Below are positions 872 through 13,876 of a stretch of DNA of 64,000 bases, in pieces. The notes beneath the pieces are model-generated. The model saw only the letters and a list, made by a program, of their open reading frames with translations, did no database searches and was not told the DNA's origin. The position numbers and the translations under genes are program-made. This DNA is from Ralstonia pickettii DTP0602 (lineage in GTDB: Bacteria > Pseudomonadota > Gammaproteobacteria > Burkholderiales > Burkholderiaceae): assembly GCA_000471925.1 (NCBI GenBank), contig CP006668.1, forward strand, positions 372,001 to 436,000. Reading direction: 5' to 3'. Each line of letters starts with the position of its first letter. Positions within the stretch are counted from its first letter, which is position 1.

Positions 872-2530
872 ATGACCACCACCAGCACGGGCCGCCAATG
901 GAACACCCGCAGGGAAGCCAAGGCGCGCCGCAAGCAGAACGCCGCCGCGATCGCGCAGGGCAAGCTGGTCCCGACCAGCGATATCGTGCCCTTCCTGGAG
1001 GCCGTGCTGCTTCCGGGCGACCGCGTGGTGCTCGAGGGCAACAACCAGAAGCAGGCTGACTTCCTGTCGCGCTCGCTGGCGCAGGTCGATCCCGCGCGCG
1101 TGAACGCGCTGCACATGATCATTCCCAGCGTCAGCCGGGTCGAGCACCTGGACCTGTTCGAGCGCGGCATCGCGCGCAAGCTGGATTTCTCGTACGCCGG
1201 CGCGCAGAGCATCCGCATCTCGCAGTTCCTGGAAGACGGGCAGCTCGAAGTGGGTGCGATCCACACCTATATCGAACTCTATGCGCGGCTGTATGTGGAC
1301 CTGGTTCCCAACGTCGTGCTGATCGCCGGATACAAGGCCGATCGCGACGGCAATCTCTACACCGGCCCGAGCACCGAAGACACGCCGGCACTCGTCGAGG
1401 CCGCCGCCTTCCGCGACGGCCTGGTCATCGCGCAAGTCAACGAGATCGTCGACGACCCCGCCGGCCTGCCGCGCGTGGACGTGCCGGGCTCCTGGATCGA
1501 CTACGTGGTGCAAGCGGACAAGCCCTTCTTCTGCGAACCGCTGTTCACGCGCGACCCGCGCCTGATCAAGCCGGTCCACGTGCTGATGGCGATGATGGCG
1601 ATCCGCGGCATCTACGAGCGCCACCAGGTGCAGTCGCTCAACCACGGCATTGGCTTCAACACCGCGGCGATCGAACTGATCTTGCCTACCTATGGCGAGT
1701 CGCTGGGGCTGAAAGGCAAGATCTGCAAGTACTGGACCCTCAACCCGCATCCGACGCTGATCCCTGCCATCGAGACCGGCTGGGTCGAGAGCGTGCACAG
1801 CTTTGGCAGCGAACTGGGCATGGAGGCTTATGTTGCCGCAAGGCCGGATGTCTTCTTCACCGGTGCGGATGGTTCGATGCGCTCGAACCGTGCCTTCTGC
1901 CAGCTTGCCGGCCAGTACGCGGTGGACCTCTTCATCGGCTCGACCCTGCAGATCGACGGCGACGGCCACTCGTCCACGGTGACCCGCGGGCGCCTGTCGG
2001 GCTTTGGCGGCGCGCCCAACATGGGCCACCAGCCCGGCGGGCGCCGGCACCCGACGCCGGCCTGGCTGGACCTGATCGAGACCGACGATCCGCTCGCGCG
2101 CGGCCGCAAGCTGGTGGTGCAGATGGTCGAAACCTTCCAGGCAGGCGGCAAGCCCACCTTCGTGGAATCGATGGACGCGGTCGACGTCGCGCGCGAAAGC
2201 GGCATGCCGCTGGCGCCGGTGATGATCTACGGCGACGACGTCACGCACGTGCTGACCGAGGAGGGCATCGCCTACCTGTACAAGGCGCAATCGCTGGAAG
2301 AGCGGCGCCGGATGATCGCCGCGGTGGCCGGCGTCACGCCGATCGGCATGAAGCATGACCCCGCCACGACGCGCCGCATGCGCAGCGACGGCCTGATCGC
2401 GCTGCCTGAAGACCTGGGCGTGCAGCGCAGCCAGGCCACGCGCAGCCTGCTGGCCGCCAAGAGCATGGCCGACCTGGTGGACTGGTCCGGCGGCCTGTAC
2501 GCGCCGCCGGCCCGCTTCCGGAGCTGGTAA
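872..2530 (+). CDS. mdcA: Malonate decarboxylase alpha subunit (acetyl-ACP:malonate ACP transferase)
   Basis: MdcA swaps the acetyl group on the carrier protein MdcC for malonate, giving malonyl-ACP for decarboxylation. The 552 residues match the usual length of the family, and the N-terminal region (NTRREAKARRK, then LVPTSDIVPFLEA) and the GGAPNMGHQPGGRRH stretch are typical of MdcA. It is the first gene of a tight mdcABCDEGH operon; its stop TAA shares one base with the ATG of mdcB, so translation is probably coupled. The ATG at 872 follows a CCGGAGATGCG leader with a usable ribosome site. The cytoplasmic complex converts malonate to acetate and CO2 without free CoA esters. Confidence 0.95.
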   Translation: MTTTSTGRQWNTRREAKARRKQNAAAIAQGKLVPTSDIVPFLEAVLLPGDRVVLEGNNQKQADFLSRSLAQVDPARVNALHMIIPSVSRVEHLDLFERGIARKLDFSYAGAQSIRISQFLEDGQLEVGAIHTYIELYARLYVDLVPNVVLIAGYKADRDGNLYTGPSTEDTPALVEAAAFRDGLVIAQVNEIVDDPAGLPRVDVPGSWIDYVVQADKPFFCEPLFTRDPRLIKPVHVLMAMMAIRGIYERHQVQSLNHGIGFNTAAIELILPTYGESLGLKGKICKYWTLNPHPTLIPAIETGWVESVHSFGSELGMEAYVAARPDVFFTGADGSMRSNRAFCQLAGQYAVDLFIGSTLQIDGDGHSSTVTRGRLSGFGGAPNMGHQPGGRRHPTPAWLDLIETDDPLARGRKLVVQMVETFQAGGKPTFVESMDAVDVARESGMPLAPVMIYGDDVTHVLTEEGIAYLYKAQSLEERRRMIAAVAGVTPIGMKHDPATTRRMRSDGLIALPEDLGVQRSQATRSLLAAKSMADLVDWSGGLYAPPARFRSW

Positions 2531-3459
2531 TGGCGAGCGCAGCTGCAAGGATCCTGCATACGCCGGCACAGCCCTGGCACCAGCCTGCGGCCTCCACCCG
2601 CGCCCAGGCACTGGCTGGCCTGGCCGTCAGCGCGATTGTCGAGGAAGCACGCCTGTCGCCCAAGCCCGGCCTGGTCGACAGCCGCGGCAGCGGTGCGCAT
2701 ACCGACCTGACATTGCCGCTGATGCTGCGCTCTGCGCAGTCGCTGGAACCATCGTTCGTGGCCATGGCCGACGCCGGCCTGCAGGCGCCGCGCGTTGCGT
2801 ATGGGCTGCGCGAACGGCTGGGCGCACTCGGCCGCGAGGCCGAGGCCGTCATGCTGTCTGCCACCGGCGGCGTCAACACGCATCGCGGCGCGATCTGGTG
2901 CATCGGCTTGCTGGTCGGCGCCGCGGGACACGTCAGCGCTGCCGGGCACCGTGCCAGTGCCGCCGCGATCAGTGCTACAGCCGGCGCCATTGCCGCGCTG
3001 CCGGACCGTCACCGCCCCGCGGTGACCGGGAACAAGGGCGAGCTCGCGTGCCTGGCGTACGGGGTTGGCGGTGCGCGGGAGCAGGCACGGGCGGGTTTCC
3101 CGCACGTGATGCGGCTGGCGCTGCCGGCATTGCAGCGCAGCCGCGCGCGCGGCGACAGCGAATCCACGGCACGCCTCAATGCGCTGCTGGCGCTGATGAG
3201 CGCGCTGGACGATACCTGCGTGCTGGCGAGGTCCGGGCACAAGGGCCTGGGCTACATGCAGGCCGGTGCGAAGGCGGTACTCGCCGCCGGTGGCGCGGGC
3301 ACGGTGGCCGGACGGCGGCACCTGCGCAGCCTGGACGCCGGCATGCTGGCGCAGCGCGCCTCACCGGGCGGCGCGGCGGACCTGCTGGCCGCCACCATCT
3401 TTTTGGACCGGCTGTCGCACGACGACGATGCCGGCGGGCACGACTTCAGGGGACTGTGA
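2530..3459 (+). CDS. mdcB: Triphosphoribosyl-dephospho-CoA synthase
   Basis: MdcB (CitG family) makes 2'-(5''-triphosphoribosyl)-3'-dephospho-CoA from ATP and dephospho-CoA, the precursor of the MdcC prosthetic group. The 309-residue protein carries the CitG signatures LSPKPGLVDSRGSGAHTD (about residues 43-60) and GVNTHRGAIW (about 114-123). It overlaps mdcA by one base and mdcC by one base (TGATG). It acts with MdcG, which transfers the group to the apo carrier protein. Family assignment is firm. Confidence 0.93.
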   Translation: MASAAARILHTPAQPWHQPAASTRAQALAGLAVSAIVEEARLSPKPGLVDSRGSGAHTDLTLPLMLRSAQSLEPSFVAMADAGLQAPRVAYGLRERLGALGREAEAVMLSATGGVNTHRGAIWCIGLLVGAAGHVSAAGHRASAAAISATAGAIAALPDRHRPAVTGNKGELACLAYGVGGAREQARAGFPHVMRLALPALQRSRARGDSESTARLNALLALMSALDDTCVLARSGHKGLGYMQAGAKAVLAAGGAGTVAGRRHLRSLDAGMLAQRASPGGAADLLAATIFLDRLSHDDDAGGHDFRGL

Positions 3460-3779
3460 TGGAACAACTGCGATTTGAATTTCCGGCAGGGCAGCCTGCC
3501 GCTGGGCGCGTGCTGGTCGGCGTGGTGGGATCGGGCGACCTCGAGGTGCTGGTCGAGCCCGGCAGCGGCGGCGTGACCACAGTGGAGGTCACCACCTCGA
3601 TCAATGGCTATAGCCGCGTCTGGGATGCGCAGCTTTCGCGCGTCTTTGCCGCCGAGCCGCGGGCATCGATGCAGATCCGCATCCACGATTTCGGCGCGAC
3701 GCCGGGTGTGGTCGGCATGCGCCTGGCCGAAGCCTTTGAGGCGCTGGGGGGCGTACAGCAACCAGGAGAGGGGTCATGA
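3459..3779 (+). CDS. mdcC: Malonate decarboxylase acyl carrier protein (delta subunit)
   Basis: This 106-residue protein is the acyl carrier of malonate decarboxylase. The prosthetic phosphoribosyl-dephospho-CoA is attached to a serine in the motif VVGSGDLEVLVEP; here it falls at Ser25, the same position reported for the Klebsiella protein. Its ATG overlaps the mdcB stop, and its own TGA overlaps the mdcD ATG (ATGA), so it is translationally coupled on both sides. An open frame extends upstream, but the length and the coupling favour this start. Confidence 0.95.
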   Translation: MEQLRFEFPAGQPAAGRVLVGVVGSGDLEVLVEPGSGGVTTVEVTTSINGYSRVWDAQLSRVFAAEPRASMQIRIHDFGATPGVVGMRLAEAFEALGGVQQPGEGS

Positions 3780-4627
3780 GCACCGAGGCACTGCTGGCGC
3801 GCAACAGCTTTATCGAACTGGGGGCACGCGAGCGCGCGCGCGTGCTGCTCGACGCGGGCACCTTCCGCGAACTGGCCGGCCCGTTCGACGGCCTGCAATC
3901 ACCATGGCTGCCGCCGCAGGGCGTGGTGCCCCAGAGCGATGATGGCGTGGTGGTTGCCAAGGGACGCATCGACGGGATGCCGGTGGTGGTGCTGGCGATT
4001 GAAGGCGCGTTCCAGGGCGGCAGCCTCGGCGAAGTCGGCGGCGCCAAGATCGCCGGCGCGCTCGAGCTCGCGGCCGAGGATAATCGCCGCGGCGAACCGA
4101 CGCGCGCGGTGCTGCTGCTGGAAACCGGCGGCGTGCGCCTGCAGGAAGCCAATCTGGGCCTCGCCGCAATTGCCGATATCCACGCCGCGATCGTCGACCT
4201 GCGGCGCTACCAGCCCGTGGTGGGTGTGATCGCGGGGCAGGTGGGGTGCTTTGGCGGCATGTCGATCGCCGCCGGGCTGTGTACCGCGCTGGTGATGACG
4301 CAGGAAGGGCGCCTGGGCCTGAACGGCCCGGCCGTGATCGAGCAGGAGGCGGGCATTGCCGAGTATGACTCGCGCGACCGGCCCTTTATCTGGAGCTTTA
4401 CCGGCGGCACGCAGCGCGTTGCCAGCGGCTTTGCGGATATTTACGTCGATGACGACTGCGACGCCATGCGCAGCGAAGTCGCCACACTGGTGCGCGGCCC
4501 CGTTGCCGCCAGCCATCGCAGCGAGCGCTACGCGCAGTACCTGGCCGCGCTGCAAGACTATGACGCCAGCGTCCAGCCGACACCGGCGGGGGTGCAAGAC
4601 CTGTTTCAATGGGAGAACGACGCATGA
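3776..4627 (+). CDS. mdcD: Malonate decarboxylase beta subunit
   Basis: MdcD and MdcE form the carboxy-lyase that decarboxylates malonyl-ACP to acetyl-ACP. This 283-residue protein has the crotonase/carboxyltransferase fold typical of acyl-CoA carboxylase subunits, with glycine-rich segments such as GAFQGGSLGEVGGAKIAGAL and LLLETGGVRLQEAN. It starts inside the mdcC stop codon and ends four bases into mdcE, typical of an operon producing a stoichiometric complex. Confidence 0.95.
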   Translation: MSTEALLARNSFIELGARERARVLLDAGTFRELAGPFDGLQSPWLPPQGVVPQSDDGVVVAKGRIDGMPVVVLAIEGAFQGGSLGEVGGAKIAGALELAAEDNRRGEPTRAVLLLETGGVRLQEANLGLAAIADIHAAIVDLRRYQPVVGVIAGQVGCFGGMSIAAGLCTALVMTQEGRLGLNGPAVIEQEAGIAEYDSRDRPFIWSFTGGTQRVASGFADIYVDDDCDAMRSEVATLVRGPVAASHRSERYAQYLAALQDYDASVQPTPAGVQDLFQWENDA

Positions 4628-5460
4628 ACGCACAACTCCATCCCGCGCCTGGACGCGAAATCAGCCGCGGCGCACGATGGCTGCAGGCGCTGGCGCCGAC
4701 GGCGTCGTACCTGCCTGGCTTCCCGGACTCGGTGGCAGTTGCGGACGGCGAACTGGCCGGCGGAGCGGTGCGCTGGATCGCGCTCGTGCCGGATGCGACC
4801 AGCCGCTTCCCGCGTGCGCGCAACGGCGAGGCCGGCCTGCTTGAAGGCTGGTCGCTGGCGCGCGCGGTGCGCGAGGTGATCGAAGCGGATCGCAACGCGC
4901 AGGTCAAGCGCGCAATCGTGGCGATCGTCGATACGCCCAGCCAGGCGTATGGCCGGCGCGAAGAAGCGCTCGGCATCCACCAGTCACTGGCCGGCGCCGT
5001 GGCCGCCTATGCCGACGCGCGCCTGGCCGGCCATCCGGTGGTGGCGCTGATCGTCGGGCGCGCCATGTCGGGGGCCTTCCTTGCGCACGGCTACCAGGCC
5101 AACCGCATCATCGCGCTCGATGACAAGGGCGTGCTGGTGCATGCGATGGGCAAGGAAGCCGCCGCCAGGATCACCATGCGCACGGTCGAGGACCTCGAAG
5201 CGCTGGCATCGACCGTGCCGCCGATGGCCTATGACATCGAGAACTTCGCCACGCTGGGCATCCTGTGGCGGCTCATTGATGTGGAATCGGCCAGCGAACC
5301 AATGGCGGCGGATGTGCACCTGGCCCGCGACACCATCCTCTCCGCGCTGGCGGATATCCAGCGCGATCAGGCGCACGACCTGTCGAGCCGGCGCGCGGGG
5401 GCCAACCGCAAGGCGTCGGCCGACGTGCGCGCCTGCCTGACGCGGCAATGGCAGGCCTGA
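4624..5460 (+). CDS. mdcE: Malonate decarboxylase gamma subunit
   Basis: MdcE is the second carboxyltransferase-fold subunit and partners MdcD. The motif VVALIVGRAMSGAFLAHGYQ, followed by ALDDKGVLVHAMGKEAAARIT, is characteristic. An in-frame ATG exists at 4609, but the start at 4624 overlaps the mdcD stop as ATGA, follows a GGGAGAACGACGC ribosome site, and gives 278 residues, the normal family length. The 3' end overlaps mdcG by 13 bp. Confidence 0.94.
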   Translation: MNAQLHPAPGREISRGARWLQALAPTASYLPGFPDSVAVADGELAGGAVRWIALVPDATSRFPRARNGEAGLLEGWSLARAVREVIEADRNAQVKRAIVAIVDTPSQAYGRREEALGIHQSLAGAVAAYADARLAGHPVVALIVGRAMSGAFLAHGYQANRIIALDDKGVLVHAMGKEAAARITMRTVEDLEALASTVPPMAYDIENFATLGILWRLIDVESASEPMAADVHLARDTILSALADIQRDQAHDLSSRRAGANRKASADVRACLTRQWQA

Positions 5461-6095
5461 ACGCCGCCACGCTGGCACCGCATGACCTGGTCTGGCTGGC
5501 CGATCCTGCCACCAGCCTCGACCGGGATGCCTTGCCGGACTGGGTCTCGCTGACAGCGCTGCGCGAGATGCCGGTGGTGGTGCGTCGCGATGGCTGCCGC
5601 ATCGGTGAGATTCCCGTCGGGCTGCGCGGCCGCACGCGCTCGGAACGCTATGGCACCTGGGTCGCGCCCTCGGCGATCTGCAAGATCGTTACGCCGATCG
5701 AGCTGGCCGCGCAGCGCACCTGGCGCCATCGACCGGAGCTGGCGACACTGCCGGCAATCGTCGCGCTCGAGGCTATCGCAGACTGGCTCGACGCAGCGGA
5801 TATCCGGTGGGGCGTGACCGGCAGTGCAGGCTTCTCGCTTGCCTGTGCGCACAACGTGCTGCATGCCGACAGTGACCTCGACCTCGTTGTGCAAGCTGCG
5901 CAACCGCTGCCGGCCCGGCACGTGGAGCTGCTTGCCGAACTGCAGCGCGCCGCGCCGGCCAGGATCGACATCCAGGTTGCGACGCCGTTCGGCGGCTTCT
6001 CGTTGCTGGAGCGAGTGCGCAGCGGCGGCAAGGTGCTGCTGAAGACTGCGCACGGCCCGAGGATGACCGTCGATCCCTGGCAACCCGCGCCATGA
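5448..6095 (+). CDS. mdcG: Phosphoribosyl-dephospho-CoA transferase
   Basis: MdcG transfers the prosthetic group made by MdcB onto Ser25 of MdcC, releasing pyrophosphate. The 215-residue protein has a nucleotidyltransferase-like active site: a GS pair (VTGSAGF) followed by alternating aspartates DSDLDLV at residues 141, 143 and 145, expected to bind metal. It overlaps mdcE at its start and mdcH at its end (ATGA), so all seven genes are coupled. Confidence 0.92.
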   Translation: MAGLNAATLAPHDLVWLADPATSLDRDALPDWVSLTALREMPVVVRRDGCRIGEIPVGLRGRTRSERYGTWVAPSAICKIVTPIELAAQRTWRHRPELATLPAIVALEAIADWLDAADIRWGVTGSAGFSLACAHNVLHADSDLDLVVQAAQPLPARHVELLAELQRAAPARIDIQVATPFGGFSLLERVRSGGKVLLKTAHGPRMTVDPWQPAP

Positions 6096-7024
6096 ACATC
6101 CTGTTCACCTTTCCCGGCCAGGGCGCGCAGCGCCCGGGCATGCTGAAGGACCTGCCGGCGCATCCAGCGGTCGCAGCGGTGCTGGCGGAGGCGGAGGAGG
6201 TCCTGCAGGTAGCAGTAGCGGAGATGGATTCGCCGGCAAGCCTGCAATCCACGGTCTGGACGCAGCTTTGCCTGCTGACCGCAGGCGTGGCGATGACGCG
6301 CTGCCTGGCCGCGCATGAGGCCAGCGCGGATGCAGTTGCCGGCCTGTCCATCGGCGCCTACGCGGCAGCGGTGAGCGCAGGGGTGCTGTCTTTCGCCGAT
6401 GCGCTCAGGCTGGTGCGGCTGCGCGGCGAACTGATGGCACAGGCCTACCCACAGGGCTACGGCATGACGGCCATCATCGGCCTGGACCGAAGCCGGCTCG
6501 AACCGCTGGTCGCGCAAGTCTGCTCGCCGCAGCAACCGGTGTACCTGGCCAACTTCAATGCGCCGACCCAGATCGTGATCGCGGGCAAGCTGTCGGCACT
6601 GGCAGAAGTATCGGCGCTCGCCCTCGCGGCCAGTGCGCAGGCCGCAAAGCCCGTGGCCATCCACGTCCCGTCGCACTGTCCGTTGCTCGATGACGCTGCG
6701 CAGACACTGGGCGATGCCATGCAAGACGTACCGCTGTCGCCGCCCACGCTGCGCTACTTCAGCGCCAGCAAGGCACGCGAACTGCGCGATCCCCGCAAGA
6801 TCGCCGAGGACCTCGTGCAGAACATGGCCACCCCTGTGCGCTGGCATGAAACCATGCTGCTGGTCCGTGCCAATGGTGCGAGGCTGGTGGTGGAAGCGCC
6901 GCCGGGCGACGTGCTGACACGGCTGGCGCAGCCGGTGTTTGCCGATGGCATGGCGCTGGCGTGCGACCGGACCCGGGTGGATTCGATCGCGGCGATCATG
7001 CGGCGCGAGCGGCGAGAGAGTTAG
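6092..7024 (+). CDS. mdcH: Malonyl-CoA:ACP transacylase of malonate decarboxylase
   Basis: MdcH loads malonate from malonyl-CoA onto MdcC, priming the catalytic cycle. It is a FabD-like acyltransferase: FTFPGQGAQ at the N-terminus, and the nucleophile in GLSIG with Ser86, where most FabD proteins have GHSxG. The 310-residue length is normal. It is the last gene of the operon; the next gene is convergent and ends 19 bp away. No malonate transporter (madLM or mdcF type) is visible inside the window, so uptake must be encoded elsewhere, or left of base 1. Confidence 0.93.
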   Translation: MNILFTFPGQGAQRPGMLKDLPAHPAVAAVLAEAEEVLQVAVAEMDSPASLQSTVWTQLCLLTAGVAMTRCLAAHEASADAVAGLSIGAYAAAVSAGVLSFADALRLVRLRGELMAQAYPQGYGMTAIIGLDRSRLEPLVAQVCSPQQPVYLANFNAPTQIVIAGKLSALAEVSALALAASAQAAKPVAIHVPSHCPLLDDAAQTLGDAMQDVPLSPPTLRYFSASKARELRDPRKIAEDLVQNMATPVRWHETMLLVRANGARLVVEAPPGDVLTRLAQPVFADGMALACDRTRVDSIAAIMRRERRES

Positions 7025-7042: not shown

Positions 7043-7702
7043 TTACTTGCGCGCTTTCCCGCGCACCGTCTTCTTCGCACTCCCGGCTCTTGCCGCTTCC
7101 TTGTCCGGCAGCGCACCGCCGCCATGCAACTGTTCCAGCCACGACATCGCATCGACGTACGACAGGAACTGGTGCAGGTAGCCCGGCGACATCTCGCGCA
7201 TCAGCGACAGCGAGCGATGTACCAGGTGGTTCGAGTTGAGCGGGCCGGCATGCTCCGGCACGTGCTCCAGCGACTGGCGCAGCTGCCGGTCGACGCTGAC
7301 CCTGGCCCAGGTATCGCGGAAATAATCGACCAGCTCCGGTTCGACCGGGGCGGGGCGCCGCGGCAGGGGCGTGCGCGTTGCGGGAGCGCTTTGCGCGGGC
7401 TGCGCATGGGCCTGCATATGCCCGACCAGGCCGGCAAGCATGCCGGCAGCAGGCTTGCGTGGGAGCACGGCGCTGCTGGCGTGGACGCCTTCGCACGCGG
7501 CGCTCTCCATCGTCTTGCCATAGGCCTCGACCAGGCTGGCCAGCCGGTCGTCCAGCAGGCGCCGCGCGGCGCCGCTGTGGCCGGCCGCGCGCCGGGCCAG
7601 CGCTTCGATAAAGCGGAAGCGCACCGGGTCGAGCCGGTCGGCGCCGCGCTCGCGCCAGGCCTCGAGCGTTGCGCGGACGTCGCCGTTCTTGCCGCTATCC
7701 AT
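7043..7702 (-). CDS. DUF2894 protein of a motor-like module
   Basis: This 219-residue soluble protein has a helical N-terminal part (ARREATLEAW-like, with RFRFIEALARRAAGH), a proline-rich middle and a C-terminal part (YFRDTWARVSVDRQLRQSL, then NSNHLVHRSLSLMREMSPGYL) characteristic of DUF2894. No signal peptide or membrane segment is seen. Its start overlaps the end of the OmpA-like gene by 8 bp, and it is the last gene of a four-gene minus-strand operon (DUF3348, DUF802, OmpA/MotB-like, DUF2894). Its role is unknown; the constant company of a MotAB-like pair suggests a cytoplasmic effector or assembly factor (inference). Confidence 0.75.
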   Translation of the reverse strand: MDSGKNGDVRATLEAWRERGADRLDPVRFRFIEALARRAAGHSGAARRLLDDRLASLVEAYGKTMESAACEGVHASSAVLPRKPAAGMLAGLVGHMQAHAQPAQSAPATRTPLPRRPAPVEPELVDYFRDTWARVSVDRQLRQSLEHVPEHAGPLNSNHLVHRSLSLMREMSPGYLHQFLSYVDAMSWLEQLHGGGALPDKEAARAGSAKKTVRGKARK

Positions 7703-8342
7703 TGCGCTTGGCGGTGCCCGTGGTCACCCGCGGGATCGGCGCGATTTCCACGCGACGGTTGCGGGCCCGGCTTTCGGCGTCGGCGTTCGGCGTCACCGGC
7801 TGCTGCGAGCCGAAGGCCGCCGAGAACACCGACGCGGCCGGCACGCCGGCATCGATCAATGCGCGGGTCACGGTCAGTGCGCGCTGCGCGGACAGTTCCC
7901 AGTTGTCGGCGAAGCGGCGGTTGCCTTCGCGTACCTGCTGGTCGTCGGTGAAGCCGCTGACCATCAGGATCTCGTCGCGGCTGCGCAGGTAGGCCGACAG
8001 CGGCGCGGCCAGGCTGCGGAGCACTTCGCGGCCTTGGGGCTGCAACTGGTCGGAGTTGAGCGAGAACAGCACACTGCCGTTGATGCCGATGCGCCCGTTG
8101 ACCAGCGTCACCCGGCCGGCGGCGAGCGGTCCGGCCAACGCCTTCTCCAGCGTCTCGCGGCGCTGCGCTTCCTCCTGCCGCTGCCTGACCTCGTCTTCCA
8201 GCCTCGCCGTCAGTTCGAGCTGCACGCCGATCACGCCCAGCAGGATCAGCACGAAGGCGCCCAGCAGCACCGACATCAGGTCGCCGAAGACGGCCCACGC
8301 CGGTACGGTCGGCTCCACGCCGGCGTCGAAGTCGTCCCTCAT
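7695..8342 (-). CDS. MotB/ZorB-like protein with OmpA peptidoglycan-binding domain
   Basis: The 215-residue protein has one N-terminal membrane helix (about residues 15-42, WAVFGDLMSVLLGAFVLILL) with a single acidic residue, Asp21, placed as is the proton-carrying Asp of MotB, TolR and ZorB. A short coiled linker (LEDEVRQRQEEAQRRETLEKAL) leads to an OmpA/MotB domain with the GFTDD and RNRRVEI motifs that bind peptidoglycan. It overlaps DUF802 by four bases and DUF2894 by eight. Its partner is the channel protein encoded upstream. The prediction is a stator-type inner-membrane subunit anchored to the cell wall. Confidence 0.85.
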   Translation of the reverse strand: MRDDFDAGVEPTVPAWAVFGDLMSVLLGAFVLILLGVIGVQLELTARLEDEVRQRQEEAQRRETLEKALAGPLAAGRVTLVNGRIGINGSVLFSLNSDQLQPQGREVLRSLAAPLSAYLRSRDEILMVSGFTDDQQVREGNRRFADNWELSAQRALTVTRALIDAGVPAASVFSAAFGSQQPVTPNADAESRARNRRVEIAPIPRVTTGTAKRNG

Positions 8343-11300
8343 GCCGCCTCTGCGCGGGATGCGCCCTGGCCGCCGAGTTGCTGCAGGTCTTCAAGGATCT
8401 GCTTCTGCGACATCATGCTGAGGTCGACCACTTCGCGGGCCTGCGCCACGTAATAGGCGAGTTGCTCGTCGCTGCGTACCATCGACTTGTCGAGCGCGGC
8501 CTCGATGCGCTGCAGGTGGCCCATCAGCTTGTCGTTCGAATCGCTGAAGAGCTGCACCGCCACGCCGAAGGCCTCGCCCAGGCTGGCCACCTCGACGGCA
8601 CTGCCCGTGACCTGCGCGGCGACTGCGGCGAGCTTGTCGGCTTCGGCTTCGACCTTGTCGGTGAAGCGGGTGCCGACCCGGTCGAGCAGGTCGGCGGTGG
8701 TGCCGACCAGCTTGTCGACCGCGGTGCGTTGCTCGGTGGAGGCGTGGTTGACGGCGTCGAGCAGCGTGCCCAGCGTCTCCAGCATGCGGCTGCGTTCTTC
8801 CAGCATGGCGTTGTCGCGGGCCATGCCGTCGGTGAGCTTCTGGCGCAGTTCGGCGATGACCTCGGCCGCGGCCTTGGGCGCTTCGGTGGCTGCCTGCACC
8901 AGGCGCGAGACCTCGGCGATGGTGCTGCTGGCGTGCGCCTGCGTTTGCGTGGAGATGTCGCGTGCGGTCTGCGCAAGCGTGTCGCAGATCTCCTGCTGGC
9001 GGCTGGTGGTGTGGGCGCCGGCCTGCTCCCATTCCTGGCGCAGCGACGCGGCCATGGCAGCGAGCGAGCCGGTCCATGCGGTAAGCCGCCGCTCATCCTT
9101 GGCGGCCAGTTCCGCCTGCATCGCGGCGGCGGCCTTCGGGGCCTCCGCGGCGGCCTGCACCAGGCGGTCGATTTCGGCGATGGTGCCGCTGGCGTGTGCC
9201 TGCGTTTGCGTCGAGATATCGCGTGCAGTCTGGGCCAGCGCTTCGCAGATCTCCTGCTGGCGGCTGGCGGTGCTGGTGCCTGCCTGCTCCCATTCCTGGC
9301 GCAGCGATGCGGCCATGGCAGCGAGCGAGCCGGTCCACGCGGTGAGCCGCTGCTCGTCCTTGGCGGCCAGTTCCGCCTGCATCGCGGCGGCGGCCTTCGG
9401 GGCCTCCGCTGCTAACTGCACCAGGCGGTCGATCTCGGCGATGGTGCTGCTGGCGTGCGCCTGCGTTTGCGTGGAGATGTCGCGTGCGGTCTGCGCGAGG
9501 GTTGCGCAGATCTCTTGCTGGCGGGTCGCGGTGTGCGCGCCGGCCTGCTCCCATTCCGAGCGCAGCGCCGATGCCATGGCGCCGAGCGACTCCGTCCACG
9601 CCGCCAGCCGCTGCTGGTCCTGCGCGGCTAGTTCCGCCTGCAACGCTGCCGCGGCCATCGGGGCCTCCGCTGCTACCTGCACCAGGCGGTCGATCTCGGC
9701 GATGGTGCTGCTGGCGTGCGCCTGTGTTTGCGTGGAGATTTCGCGCGCGGTCTGCGTGAGTGCGGCGCAGATCTCCCGTTGCCGGCCAGCCGTGTGCGCG
9801 CCGGCCTGCTCCCATTCCGTGCGCAGCGCCGATGCCATGGCGCCGAGCGAGTCGGTCCACGCCGCCAGCCGCTGCTCATCCTTGGCGGCCAGTTCCGCCT
9901 GCATCGCCGCGGCGGCCTTCGGGGCTTCCGCGGCGGCCTGCACCAGGCGGTCGATCTCGGCGAGGGTGCCGCTGGCGTGCGTTTGTGCCTGGGCGGCGAT
10001 GTCGTTCGCGGTTTTGGCGAGCGTCTCGCAGATTTCCCGCTGGCGGGTCGCGGTATGCGCGCTTGCCTGCTGCCATTCCTGGCGCAGCGATGCCGCCATC
10101 GCGCCCAGGACTTCAGTCCAGGCCGCCAGGCGCTGCTCGTCCCGCGCCGCCAGTTGTGCCTGCAAGCCGGCATGCGACTGGTCCACGGCCTGGACCAGCG
10201 CGGTGGACTGCTGTGCAAAGGCGGCCGTGGCGCTGGCCAGCGCCTGCTGGTTGTCGCCGGCGAGCTTCTCGCTGGCGCGCTCCTGCCGGCCCAGCGCTTC
10301 GGTCCATGCTGCCGCGGTGCTGGCCGCCGCCGCGTCCACCCGTGTGGCGACGCCGTCCAGCAGGCCGGCCGAGCGTTGGTCGAAGGTCTGAGCAAATCCA
10401 TCCAGCGTGGTGCGCAGGTCGTTGGCGATCGCCTCGCTGGTACGCTGTTGTCCGGCCAGCGCCTGGTTCCAGATATCGGCCACGTTGGTGGTCGTGGTCT
10501 CGAAGCGCGCCGATACACCGTCCAGGTGCTGCTGCACGGCCTGCGTCACGGTCTCGCGCAAGGACGCGGTTTCCTGTGCCAGGCCCGCCATGGTGGCATC
10601 CACGGCCGGCTGGATCGCTGCGCTGGCCGCGCGGGCGCTGTCGGCGATGCTGTCCTTCAGCGATTGTTCGACGGAAGACGCCAGGCGCGTGTATGCCACT
10701 TCGGTCTTGCCGTGGAAGGCGTCCTGGCTGGCGGCGAGCCGCTCGGTCAGCGCCAGGTTCTGCTGCTCCATCGCGGTCATCATGGCTTGCAGCCGGTCGA
10801 CCAGCGCGGGCATCACGTCAGCCTGGCGCTGCAGCAGCCGGAAGGCTTCTTCACGCTGGTGGCCGCGCGAGTAGGGGCGCAAGGCCGTGGCGATGCGGGC
10901 GTCGAGGCTCTGCGCGGCCTGGATCCGCTCGCGCCGGCACAGCGCGGCCAGCAGCCCCAGCATTGCCGACGTGGCCACGCCCGCGACCGAGGTACCGAAG
11001 GCAAAGCCCAGGCCCTTGACCGGTGCCGCCATCGACGCGCGGATCGCCTGCAGGTCGGTTGCGCTTTCCAGCGCGAGCCCCGTGCCGCGCAGCGTCGCCA
11101 CCATGCCCAGGAAGGTGCCCAGCATGCCCAGCAACACCAGCAGGCCGACCAGGTAGGGCGTCAGCGCCGGGCCGGGCAGGGCGACGCGATCGCCCTCGAT
11201 GCGCAGGCGCACGGCATCGCGCAGGCTGGGGTGCAGGCGCTCCAGCCAGCTGGCGAGGTTCGCCGGCGCTTCGGAAAGGCTGGAGAGGGCTTGCGACAGG

Positions 11301-11476
11301 GTGGAAGTGGCCTGCCGATAGCGTTGCAGCTCGTGCGCGCCCGCCAGGTAGCAGCCGCCGATCAGCAGCGTGACGACCAGCGCCAGGGCGTTCGAGCCCG
11401 CATAGCTGGCGCCGATCCAGCCCACGACGGCCAAGCCTGCCAGGAAAGCAACAATATGGATGAGGTATCGGGTCAT
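8339..11476 (-). CDS. DUF802 protein: MotA/TolQ/ZorA-like channel with very long coiled tail
   Basis: The 1,045-residue protein has four predicted membrane helices (about residues 5-25, 30-48, 107-128 and 155-180). The last two carry the MotA/TolQ/ExbB pattern: LVGLLVLLGMLGTFLGMV and GLGFAFGTSVAGVATSAML. Residues from about 190 to the end are alanine/glutamine-rich helices, predicted as a coiled coil that projects into the cytoplasm. Residues 439-873 are five tandem 87-residue repeats. An open frame extends 77 codons upstream, but it is arginine/proline-rich and overlaps the preceding gene; ATG 11476 starts directly before the first membrane helix. The family is uncharacterised; the layout resembles ZorA of the Zorya defence system. 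Confidence 0.85.
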   Translation of the reverse strand: MTRYLIHIVAFLAGLAVVGWIGASYAGSNALALVVTLLIGGCYLAGAHELQRYRQATSTLSQALSSLSEAPANLASWLERLHPSLRDAVRLRIEGDRVALPGPALTPYLVGLLVLLGMLGTFLGMVATLRGTGLALESATDLQAIRASMAAPVKGLGFAFGTSVAGVATSAMLGLLAALCRRERIQAAQSLDARIATALRPYSRGHQREEAFRLLQRQADVMPALVDRLQAMMTAMEQQNLALTERLAASQDAFHGKTEVAYTRLASSVEQSLKDSIADSARAASAAIQPAVDATMAGLAQETASLRETVTQAVQQHLDGVSARFETTTTNVADIWNQALAGQQRTSEAIANDLRTTLDGFAQTFDQRSAGLLDGVATRVDAAAASTAAAWTEALGRQERASEKLAGDNQQALASATAAFAQQSTALVQAVDQSHAGLQAQLAARDEQRLAAWTEVLGAMAASLRQEWQQASAHTATRQREICETLAKTANDIAAQAQTHASGTLAEIDRLVQAAAEAPKAAAAMQAELAAKDEQRLAAWTDSLGAMASALRTEWEQAGAHTAGRQREICAALTQTAREISTQTQAHASSTIAEIDRLVQVAAEAPMAAAALQAELAAQDQQRLAAWTESLGAMASALRSEWEQAGAHTATRQQEICATLAQTARDISTQTQAHASSTIAEIDRLVQLAAEAPKAAAAMQAELAAKDEQRLTAWTGSLAAMAASLRQEWEQAGTSTASRQQEICEALAQTARDISTQTQAHASGTIAEIDRLVQAAAEAPKAAAAMQAELAAKDERRLTAWTGSLAAMAASLRQEWEQAGAHTTSRQQEICDTLAQTARDISTQTQAHASSTIAEVSRLVQAATEAPKAAAEVIAELRQKLTDGMARDNAMLEERSRMLETLGTLLDAVNHASTEQRTAVDKLVGTTADLLDRVGTRFTDKVEAEADKLAAVAAQVTGSAVEVASLGEAFGVAVQLFSDSNDKLMGHLQRIEAALDKSMVRSDEQLAYYVAQAREVVDLSMMSQKQILEDLQQLGGQGASRAEAA
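8858..10162 (-). repeat. Five in-frame 261-bp tandem repeats in the DUF802 gene
   Basis: Five consecutive units of exactly 87 codons encode residues 439-873. Each starts with a QAELAAKDEQRLAAW-type segment and continues through LRQEWEQAGAHT, ICETLAQTARDIS and IAEIDRLVQAAAEAPKAAA. No unit has gained or lost a codon. Units differ by scattered substitutions, with the units nearest the 3' end most alike. The constant length suggests the coiled-coil register, and so the tail length, is under selection. Confidence 0.9.
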
Positions 11477-11486
11477 GATGTCCTGA

Positions 11487-12230
11487 TTAGCTGTCACGGA
11501 GCGCCGCGAGCAATCCTTCAATGGGCTGGAAGCGCAGGTCCAGCTCGGCGAGCAATACGCTCTGCATATCCTTGCGAAACACGGCCAGCCATGCGCCGGC
11601 CGTGACCGGTGCAGGTTGCCCCGCGGCCTGCGCCTCGGCGAGCGCCGCCGCTTCGGCCTGGCGCAGGCGCTGGAAGTGCGCCTCCAGCAGTGCCGGCACC
11701 GTTCCAAGCAGGCTCTGCTCGCGCGCCCCCAGTACGCGCTCCATCACGGTATCGACCATCGCCAGCTTCGCCATGCCGGGCGCGCGGCCCGACAGCGCGA
11801 TGCGCAGGCGGCCGCGCAGGTTGCCGATGGCGGTCTCCATCGACTGTTGCTGCGTCACATAGCGCTGGCGATAGACCGCGTAGTCGACCTGCGCCTCCAT
11901 CGGATCCGGTAGCGCGGACGGCCGGGCCGGCCCGCGCCGCCTGCCGGCGCCAGCACCATCTTCCCTGGCCGCATTGGCCAGCGCGGTGTGCACGCGGGCG
12001 CACTCGCGCTCCTCCTCGGTGCTGTCGGAGGCTTGTGCGTCCGGCGCCACGGCCGGCGGGCTGCCCTTCAGCGCCGCCGACAAGGCGATCGCGTCCGCCC
12101 AGCCCAGCCATTGGCTGAGCTGGCTCGACAGCGAGTTTCCGGGTTCGGGGACATCGGCGTCCGTCAGGCGAGCCAGCAGCCGGACCAGGGTCGGGCCGCT
12201 GAAACCTGTGCGCCGGGGGGCTTGCGACAT
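11487..12230 (-). CDS. DUF3348 protein, first gene of the motor-like module
   Basis: This 247-residue protein starts MSQAPRRTGFSGPTLVRLLARL and contains LSSQLSQWLGWADAIALSAAL, both typical of DUF3348. It is helical with no membrane segment. The stop codon is 10 bp before the DUF802 start, so the genes are co-transcribed. Function is unknown. The C-terminal half (ALLEAHFQRLRQAEAAALAEA) may form a coiled coil that contacts the DUF802 tail (inference). Confidence 0.75.
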   Translation of the reverse strand: MSQAPRRTGFSGPTLVRLLARLTDADVPEPGNSLSSQLSQWLGWADAIALSAALKGSPPAVAPDAQASDSTEEERECARVHTALANAAREDGAGAGRRRGPARPSALPDPMEAQVDYAVYRQRYVTQQQSMETAIGNLRGRLRIALSGRAPGMAKLAMVDTVMERVLGAREQSLLGTVPALLEAHFQRLRQAEAAALAEAQAAGQPAPVTAGAWLAVFRKDMQSVLLAELDLRFQPIEGLLAALRDS

Positions 12231-12390: not shown

Positions 12391-12427
12391 ATGTTCATGA
12401 ATAGTGAACAGACGCTAAATATGAACA
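12375..12427. promoter_or_regulatory. Symmetrical four-box operator
   Basis: TGTTCA occurs at 12375-12380 and 12392-12397, and its reverse complement TGAACA at 12405-12410 and 12422-12427. The inner pair forms a perfect dyad with a 7-bp spacer. Each outer box lies exactly 17 bp from the inner box on its side. The array covers the -10 region and the start codons. AbiEi antitoxins are known to repress their own operons by binding inverted repeats, so autoregulation is the natural reading. Confidence 0.6.
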
Positions 12428-13464
12428 GTGAAGTGATCATAAGTGCTGTTAGTGTGGCGTTTGAGACGCTTAAGCGTTCCTCGGGCGTGGACGCCCATAT
12501 CGGTCCTGCTACCGACAGCACACAGGATTTTCCGGTGGTGCTGAAGCGGGGAACCATTGCCCAGAGCTACCAGGCGACATGGAAAACCACGATCGCCAGC
12601 ACCGCGGCGTTGACGCTTGTTCGCACGCGCTCTGAAGAAAAAGCGCCCGACCTGATCATCACGACCTATCTCAGTCCCTTCCTGGCCGAGCATTGCCGGG
12701 ACATCGGCCTGCAATTCATCGACACAGCAGGCAACGCTTATCTGGAGACCGCCGGTCTCTATGTCTACGTGAGCGGCGGACGGCCGGATACCACCCTGTT
12801 GCCGGCCAGGGCGCGTGGCACCGGTAACCCCACAGCCTTGCGCATGATCTTCGCGCTGCTCAACCGGCCGTCCCTGTTGCAGGCGACCTATCGCGAGATT
12901 GCACAAGCCAGTGACATTGCCCTCGGGTCTGTCGGCGGAGTTTTCAGGGAGCTCGCAGCGCGGGGTTTGCTGCTGGAGGAGCCGACGACAAAGCGCAGGC
13001 GGCTGACCGCGACTGACCGGCTCCTTGACGAGTGGGTCGCCAACTATCCCTCCATCCTGCGGCCCCGACTGCAAGTCGGCCGATATGAAGCGCCCGATCC
13101 TGACTGGTGGCGCGCGGCGTCCGAAATGGTTTCAGGAAATGCTTATTGGAGCGGAGACGTCGCCGCCGAGAAGATGACTGGGTTCCTGCAGGCGGAGACG
13201 CAAACCATGTATGTCGACGTAGAGCACAAGGGCTCGATCCTCAAGCACTTGATGCACAAGTACCGGTTGCGCCCTCAGCCAGACGGCGCGATCGAAATTC
13301 TCGATGCATTCTGGCCCGCGTCGATGGCCAATGCCGAGCCTGCTGGCATCGCGCCAGCGGTAGTTGTCTATGCGGACCTGATGGCCAGCCTTGATTCACG
13401 CAGTCTGGAAGCGGCCGGTGTGTTGCGCTCAGGCGTCATCCAGCATGCGCTTGATCAGTTCTGA
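12397..13464 (+). CDS. AbiEi-type antitoxin / winged-helix regulator
   Basis: The 355-residue protein resembles AbiEi_2 (type IV toxin-antitoxin) proteins. It has the core IGLQFIDTAGNAYLETAGLYVYVSG, a winged-helix segment TYREIAQASDIALGSVGGVF about residues 165-190, and a C-terminal domain ending in AAGVLRSGVIQHALDQF. In this type of system the antitoxin represses its own promoter and blocks a nucleotidyltransferase toxin, AbiEii. In-frame starts also exist at 12391 and 12421; 12397 is chosen because the predicted transcript begins there, but 12421 would leave the operator outside the gene. Base composition is lower in GC than the flanking genes, which suggests acquisition. Confidence 0.65.
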   Translation: MNSEQTLNMNSEVIISAVSVAFETLKRSSGVDAHIGPATDSTQDFPVVLKRGTIAQSYQATWKTTIASTAALTLVRTRSEEKAPDLIITTYLSPFLAEHCRDIGLQFIDTAGNAYLETAGLYVYVSGGRPDTTLLPARARGTGNPTALRMIFALLNRPSLLQATYREIAQASDIALGSVGGVFRELAARGLLLEEPTTKRRRLTATDRLLDEWVANYPSILRPRLQVGRYEAPDPDWWRAASEMVSGNAYWSGDVAAEKMTGFLQAETQTMYVDVEHKGSILKHLMHKYRLRPQPDGAIEILDAFWPASMANAEPAGIAPAVVVYADLMASLDSRSLEAAGVLRSGVIQHALDQF

Positions 13465-13876
13465 CCGACCGCTGGATCCTGCTGCCGTGGCGGTGGAAAC
13501 CTGGGCGGAGTTTGGCGAGATAGGCGCAGCGTTAGTGCGGCACGCAGGGTTTCGGGCAGCAGCGGACGCCCCACACCGGTTCTATTACGCTACGCTGATG
13601 CGCAACTATTCGGAGGCCGGGAACATCGATCGCGTCTTCGAACTCGACGAGGCTGTCTTTGCGGCGCTGGGGTACGATCCCGATGCGGCTGGCGTTCTGC
13701 TGCTTGGCGCGGATATCGCGAAGCTTGCGAAACGGGCCACATTGGCGCAATGCCGGGCTATTCTCGACCACCGGCTGGCCATGCATATGGCGCGGACACG
13801 GCCAAACGTCGAGGAGGGGAAGGCACTGGCTGATCATCGGTTGCTGGGGATTCTTGCCAGAGGCCTACGAGGATAG
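13445..13876 (+). CDS. Small partner of the AbiEi-like protein, possibly a toxin remnant
   Basis: The 143-residue protein overlaps the AbiEi-like gene by 20 bp. It has no signal peptide or membrane helix. Residues around AGVLLLGADIAKLAKRATL, followed by a helical end, are reminiscent of the C-terminal tail of AbiEii-type nucleotidyltransferases, but the GS and DxD catalytic motifs are absent. It may be a truncated toxin, or a distinct small partner. The start is uncertain: an earlier in-frame ATG lies at 13391, and no strong ribosome site is seen. Function is not recognised. Confidence 0.5.
   Translation: MRLISSDRPLDPAAVAVETWAEFGEIGAALVRHAGFRAAADAPHRFYYATLMRNYSEAGNIDRVFELDEAVFAALGYDPDAAGVLLLGADIAKLAKRATLAQCRAILDHRLAMHMARTRPNVEEGKALADHRLLGILARGLRG

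Follow-up and report, generated by a model that had tools for sequence, protein, structure and literature searches.

The operon described here occupies positions 7043-12230 of the analyzed stretch of 64,000 nucleotides (the window), which belongs to a 2.89-Mb contig within an 8.13-Mb genome. It comprises four genes, all on the minus strand, in the order DUF3348, zorA, zorB, and DUF2894. The junctions, in the same order, are a 10-nt gap, a 4-nt overlap, and an 8-nt overlap. An earlier note on this DNA had reported four coupled genes here, and their content and position are confirmed. The features are the following.

11487-12230, minus strand: DUF3348 gene, 247 aa, product predicted to be all-helical (Pfam, PADLOC, structure prediction)
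8339-11476, minus strand: zorA3, 1,045 aa, membrane channel subunit with a long cytoplasmic tail (PADLOC, PDB profile match)
10937-11176, minus strand: ZorA3 residues 101-180, channel core with T121, T162, and S163 (61 of 61 loci)
10358-10516, minus strand: first DUF802 repeat, ZorA3 residues 321-373 (Pfam)
10193-10351, minus strand: second DUF802 repeat, ZorA3 residues 376-428 (domain match)
8861-10165, minus strand: five tandem 87-residue units, ZorA3 tail residues 438-872 (repeat analysis)
8417-8476, minus strand: ZorA3 residues 1001-1020, a conserved segment near the C terminus of the tail (mean column identity, 0.96)
7695-8342, minus strand: zorB3, 215 aa, a single N-terminal membrane helix with Asp21, followed by an OmpA-like domain
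7755-8066, minus strand: OmpA-like domain of ZorB3, residues 93-196, presumed to bind peptidoglycan (Pfam and motif residues)
7043-7702, minus strand: DUF2894 gene, 219 aa (Pfam, PADLOC)

The Pfam matches to DUF3348 (PF11828; E = 5.7e-94), OmpA (E = 2.7e-18), and DUF2894 (PF11445; E = 4.8e-67) are well above cut-off. The closest named relative of the DUF3348 protein is that of C. necator A5-1, at 96% identity. Downstream, a malonate decarboxylase (mdc) cluster at 872-7024 converges on the DUF2894 gene, with 18 bases between the coding regions. On the other side, at 12421-13876 and divergent from the operon, are an AbiEi-type antitoxin gene (PF09952) and then a frame of 145 to 161 aa without a family. 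These two adjoin the operon in only 1 of 60 other loci (G020), and the PADLOC models gave no match to either.

All four products match PADLOC models for Zorya type III, with bit scores of 1,729.6 for ZorA3 (PDLC00650), 383.4 for ZorB3 (PDLC00651), 282.9 for ZorF3, and 322 for ZorG3. The type III system of Stenotrophomonas nitritireducens DSM 12575, as represented in PADLOC, has the same four genes, and we found no defining difference from type III; the window copy has a long ZorA tail (1,045 aa, with five 87-residue units). The operon is thus very probably a complete Zorya type III system on a Cupriavidus replicon, an ion-driven motor with a shaft. Against this identification, no NCBIfam ZorA model reaches its cut-off with the window protein, the best scoring 30 bits where 100 are required. 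PMC8565338 introduced the type III label and PMC11890865 uses it again; in the available text of both, it denotes ZorAB with two other partners replacing ZorC and ZorD. The ZorF and ZorG names are swapped between sources: in the available parts of PMC8565338, ZorF is the DUF3348 protein and ZorG the DUF2894 protein, and in PADLOC-DB v2, ZorF3 is DUF2894 and ZorG3 is DUF3348. The same text of PMC8565338 writes zorBC pairs where zorAB seems to be meant.

The earlier note had proposed a motor of the ZorAB type in which two other partners replace ZorC/D, with phage defense as a possible role, and this agrees with the definition in the sections seen of PMC8565338 and PMC11890865. It had also called the partners uncharacterized; they do take the place of ZorC/D, but they already bear the names ZorF and ZorG, and phage challenge of a relative of the system has been published (available text of PMC8565338). 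The kind of system is known and named, and its novelty is not upheld. Zorya types I and II share with the window operon the ZorA-ZorB motor pair, the ion-site Asp, the peptidoglycan anchor, and the long tail, but they carry ZorC/ZorD or ZorE where the window operon has two helical DUF proteins. No ZorC, ZorD, or ZorE is encoded with ZorAB here, the flanking genes being an acyltransferase (probably mdcH) and AbiEi. According to the part of PMC11890865 available, types I and II each keep their component sizes well conserved, whereas type III ZorA ranges from 557 to 1,220 aa in 61 loci.

Asp21 of ZorB and residues T121, T162, and S163 of ZorA are invariant in 61/61 loci, as are D133, R154, and N195-R197 of ZorB. 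The MotB-like subunit with a membrane Asp21 and an OmpA domain that had been noted before is borne out by these counts and by the OmpA match. The DUF802 domain had been taken for the channel; it covers just the two 53-residue tail repeats, residues 321-373 and 376-428. Judged from their sequences, ZorA3 and ZorB3 are assigned to the ion-driven 5:2 motor superfamily. A profile of ZorA3 residues 1-260 gave one credible match in the PDB, 8vvn_C (E = 7e-5, residues 111-195), a 696-aa protein that carries the annotation MotA/TolQ/ExbB channel protein. We take it to be the type I ZorA of Shewanella sp. ANA-3, because the text available from PMC11890865 numbers that protein to 696. A single-sequence PDB search with the whole window ZorA returned nothing at E = 0.01. 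The Pfam MotA_ExbB model did not match the window's own ZorA and gave weak matches in 14 of 22 aligned ZorA members (E values up to 1 allowed; best, 0.00092), so the link between MotA and ZorA rests on the PADLOC models and the 8vvn_C profile match.

The best PDB matches of the window ZorB include MotB and PomB, and the flagellar stators MotAB and PomAB have the channel superfamily and the OmpA-like anchor in common with ZorA3 and ZorB3. The operon could on that account be read as a flagellar-type stator (MotAB) or a TolQR/ExbBD-type energizer unrelated to defense, which we regard as extremely improbable. Unlike the stators, ZorA3 has a long tail, and the tail and both DUF partners are constant across loci. 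No flagellar, Ton, or Tol gene was found in the operon or in the nine neighboring frames scanned. The MotB models among the 25 matches listed all fall below cut-off (for example, PRK09041 with 49.6 against 277 bits), and flagellar MotAB was rejected as an identity. TolQR and ExbBD were rejected likewise: an ExbD/TolR-type second subunit is absent, the sole Pfam match of the second subunit being OmpA.

All 60 further loci examined resemble the window in holding these four genes within 6 kb, with order and strand unchanged (61/61), a conservation far beyond chance. Their surroundings vary. About 31 different neighborhoods flank the 61 loci, and 14 of the 26 Cupriavidus loci lie in one of them. 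The cassette is near-core yet relocating. Of 60 genomes of the genus, 51 carry DUF3348 (47 of the 54 good-quality ones); in the family sample the figure is 207 of 299 (205 of 292 of good quality; 11 of 25 genera). Seven genera (g9, g10, g11, g13, g20, g24, and g25) together have it in 77 of 82 genomes (G060-G195, two tables combined), another has it in four of eight (g7), and a genus with genomes of 1.7 to 2.2 Mb has it in none of 14 (g12). Outside the family its occurrence is sporadic, with 8 of 200 genomes in the order sample, three of these from the family itself and two very weak, and 8 of 369 in the class sample, own genome counted. Near-core presence is unusual for an accessory defense system and counts against the identification preferred here.

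Type I components are also met in the family: one ZorA1 model matches 4 of 150 genomes at E = 1e-30, and 12 of the ZorB1 matches listed reach 85 bits. One Cupriavidus genome (G035) has a type I ZorA match in addition to its type III operon. Genome G004, which lacks DUF3348, has on contig C54 a weakly ZorB3-like stretch interrupted by an internal stop, perhaps a copy that has decayed or is distant. Our literature searches, within the portion of the listings covered, found only two notes on the distribution of type III.

A tree of the concatenated Zor proteins (60 loci) shares 18 of 57 splits with the rpoB tree, and genera g1, g9, g11, g13, and g25 are not clades in it. Conflicting Zor splits with support of at least 95 number one each for g1, g11, family f4, and the operon's own family as a whole, with no others, so that good support for replacement by transfer is confined to a few places. 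Most supported splits of the single-gene trees are in agreement with the concatenated tree (26 of 29 for DUF3348 and 17 of 19 for DUF2894), from which it follows that the four genes mostly travel together. The earlier note had named broad vertical conservation with a housekeeping role as a finding that would tell against it. That finding is borne out by half: the operon is close to core in the genus and seven further genera of the family, but no housekeeping role was found, its tree departs from that of rpoB, and its location changes.

This distribution could reflect a resident envelope-surveillance or envelope-maintenance machine of the Burkholderiaceae, whose phage defense is a by-product of overexpression in E. 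coli. The 47 of 54 good genomes of the genus and the 77 of 82 from the seven other family genera, mostly with a single copy, are consistent with this explanation, as is the rarity of the system on mobile elements. None of 50,697 phage records matched, and of 72,556 plasmid records 27 did; the 25 of these listed are all at least 366 kb, and typing gave 20 as nonmobilizable and 7 as mobilizable. The available portion of PMC13064858 gives R. solanacearum as an example of a species in which type III Zorya is highly conserved, and the one CRISPRi phage screen that we found reported no effect (PMC12584637, available text). Absence of the whole system is nevertheless tolerated, as 11 of 12 genomes without DUF3348 likewise lack a ZorB3 match at E = 1e-20. 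The roughly 31 neighborhoods and the 18 of 57 shared rpoB splits are as for a cassette gained and replaced, and a type III copy protected E. coli (PMC8565338, text available). We therefore consider a resident envelope machine unlikely.

Identification of the operon as a Zorya type III system brings with it the few published observations on that type. In E. coli BL21-AI, the S. nitritireducens system reduced plating for one phage or more (available part of PMC8565338). In B. cenocepacia K56-2 infected with phage Bcep176, the available text of PMC12584637 reports that no predicted defense system, Zorya III among them, changed CRISPRi fitness, and that transcription shifted only in the first one or two Zorya III genes; among the reasons that its authors give for the null result are a lack of activity against this phage and a knock-down that was too short. 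For types I and II, peptidoglycan binding, the tail, and ion flow are all needed (PMC11890865, sections available). Beyond a definition, one phage test, and the CRISPRi screen, the literature text that we covered offers on type III a genus list, an example of a core genome, and the mention of a strain. Of the Zorya types it seems to have been studied least. With the system near-core in Cupriavidus, this genus offers a native host for asking whether it serves defense, envelope care, or both.

By analogy with the solved type I and II complexes, five ZorA3 subunits would surround two of ZorB3. As in those types, a phage would disturb the cell wall and the ZorB anchors would grip the peptidoglycan; ion flow would then rotate or twist ZorA, and the bundled ZorA tails would pass the motion into the cytoplasm. 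The DUF3348 and DUF2894 proteins are helical in structure models of low to moderate confidence, and neither has a recognized enzyme domain, including nuclease or helicase, by Pfam, PADLOC, or the structure models. Since neither has such a domain, the final blow might come from a host factor recruited by the DUF partners or from the motor itself, as an ion leak that halts the infected cell, two options that we leave unranked.

The tail of ZorA3 varies greatly in length. We measured it between two conserved anchors, D192 and L949 in the window numbering, in 100 loci (one of 101, G273, was dropped, as its N-terminal part was unmatched), and found lengths from 274 to 931 residues. Exactly 409 residues separate the anchors in 16 loci (14 belong to seven genera of the family, the other 2 to family f63), and these 16 tails align gap-free at 47% identity or more. 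Forty-nine of the 100 loci fall on 409 + 87n, with n from 0 to 6. The 409-residue form common in the family has one 87-residue unit and the window ZorA has five, within a natural series of one to seven. Lengths in genus g11 step by 80 instead (409, 489, 569, 649, and 729). The units of the window ZorA are tandem copies at the DNA level, with 75 to 89% nucleotide identity.

Under a fixed rule, a tandem repeat was found in 69 of the 100 tails, with primary unit lengths of 22, 29, 33, 51, 62, 69, 80, 87, 131, and 149 residues. All 10 lie near whole turns of a helix with 3.636 residues per turn (mean cosine, 0.962), a value reached by none of 5,000 random sets of unit lengths; at the heptad period of 3.5 the mean cosine is -0.33. 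The hydrophobic periodicity averaged over 61 tails peaks at 3.67. Our first list of units was partly hand-picked, and the analysis was repeated with the fixed rule and then on further tails. From 80 named loci, 31 were dropped as identical to a tail already counted and 3 as cut or unmatched, leaving 46, of which 32 have repeats; all eight of their unit lengths are in phase (cosine of at least 0.89). Two lengths, 98 and 102, are absent from the first list, and only 98 is new, 102 being twice 51 and an earlier best offset of one tail. The 46 tails are relatives of the first sample (none at 95% identity or above, 10 at 90 to 95%, and 36 below 90% or without sufficient alignment length), so the test is not fully independent, and unit lengths common to related species do not count as independent events.

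Net length differences follow the rule less closely. Of 40 distinct differences from 409, 29 are in phase at 3.636 (cosine above 0.5), leaving 11 out of phase. The majority of these combine several units (multiples of 87, 29, 33, or 11) and lose phase because the unit periods differ slightly from 3.636 and the drift adds up. The difference of 282 belongs to a tail with many 22-residue repeats, and those of 23 and 172 have no such explanation.

We infer that the rod is a continuous, nearly straight helical shaft in which angular register matters and is held while length does not and drifts. Helical rods and coiled coils generally keep their register, and as this is general knowledge, the whole-turn rule alone is no proof of rotation. 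The length differences may be neutral repeat slippage, the rule then reflecting helical rods that tolerate only in-register duplications, and we give this explanation an even chance. It accords with the tandem DNA copies in the window, with the single length held without indels by 16 loci of several genera, and with the general behavior of coiled coils. The period is specific, fitting 3.636 (mean cosine, 0.96) but not the heptad 3.5 (-0.33), which speaks against slippage alone; neutral slippage contradicts only a functional reading of the whole-turn rule and not the rule itself. That functional reading, which we advance tentatively and would not bet on, is of a phase-locked, twist-transmitting shaft with exact register and free length, the cassette being a quasi-core, relocating envelope guard of the Burkholderiaceae that would kill or stall the cell without a nuclease of its own. 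No paper on a shaft length rule turned up in the portion of the listings covered by our literature searches. The new detail here is that the repeat units of the shaft are whole helical turns; this and the near-core yet relocating distribution are worth carrying further. The natural series of one to seven units is a ready-made experiment on the function of the Zorya tail.

Conservation along ZorA3 is uneven, with mean column identities of 0.84 to 0.95 in the channel core, 0.61 to 0.87 in the rod, and 0.96 at residues 1001-1020. From this conservation we guess that the tail tip is where DUF3348 and/or DUF2894 are likely to dock; it stays a guess because a distance-correlation test of the tip against the two partners gave no specific link (partial correlations of 0.39 and 0.32, at the low end of 15 pairs). 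In most of 27 expanded tails that we chose for mapping, the repeat zone lies in the middle of the tail; it is nearer the membrane in three (G316, G126, and G144) and nearer the end in one (G414).
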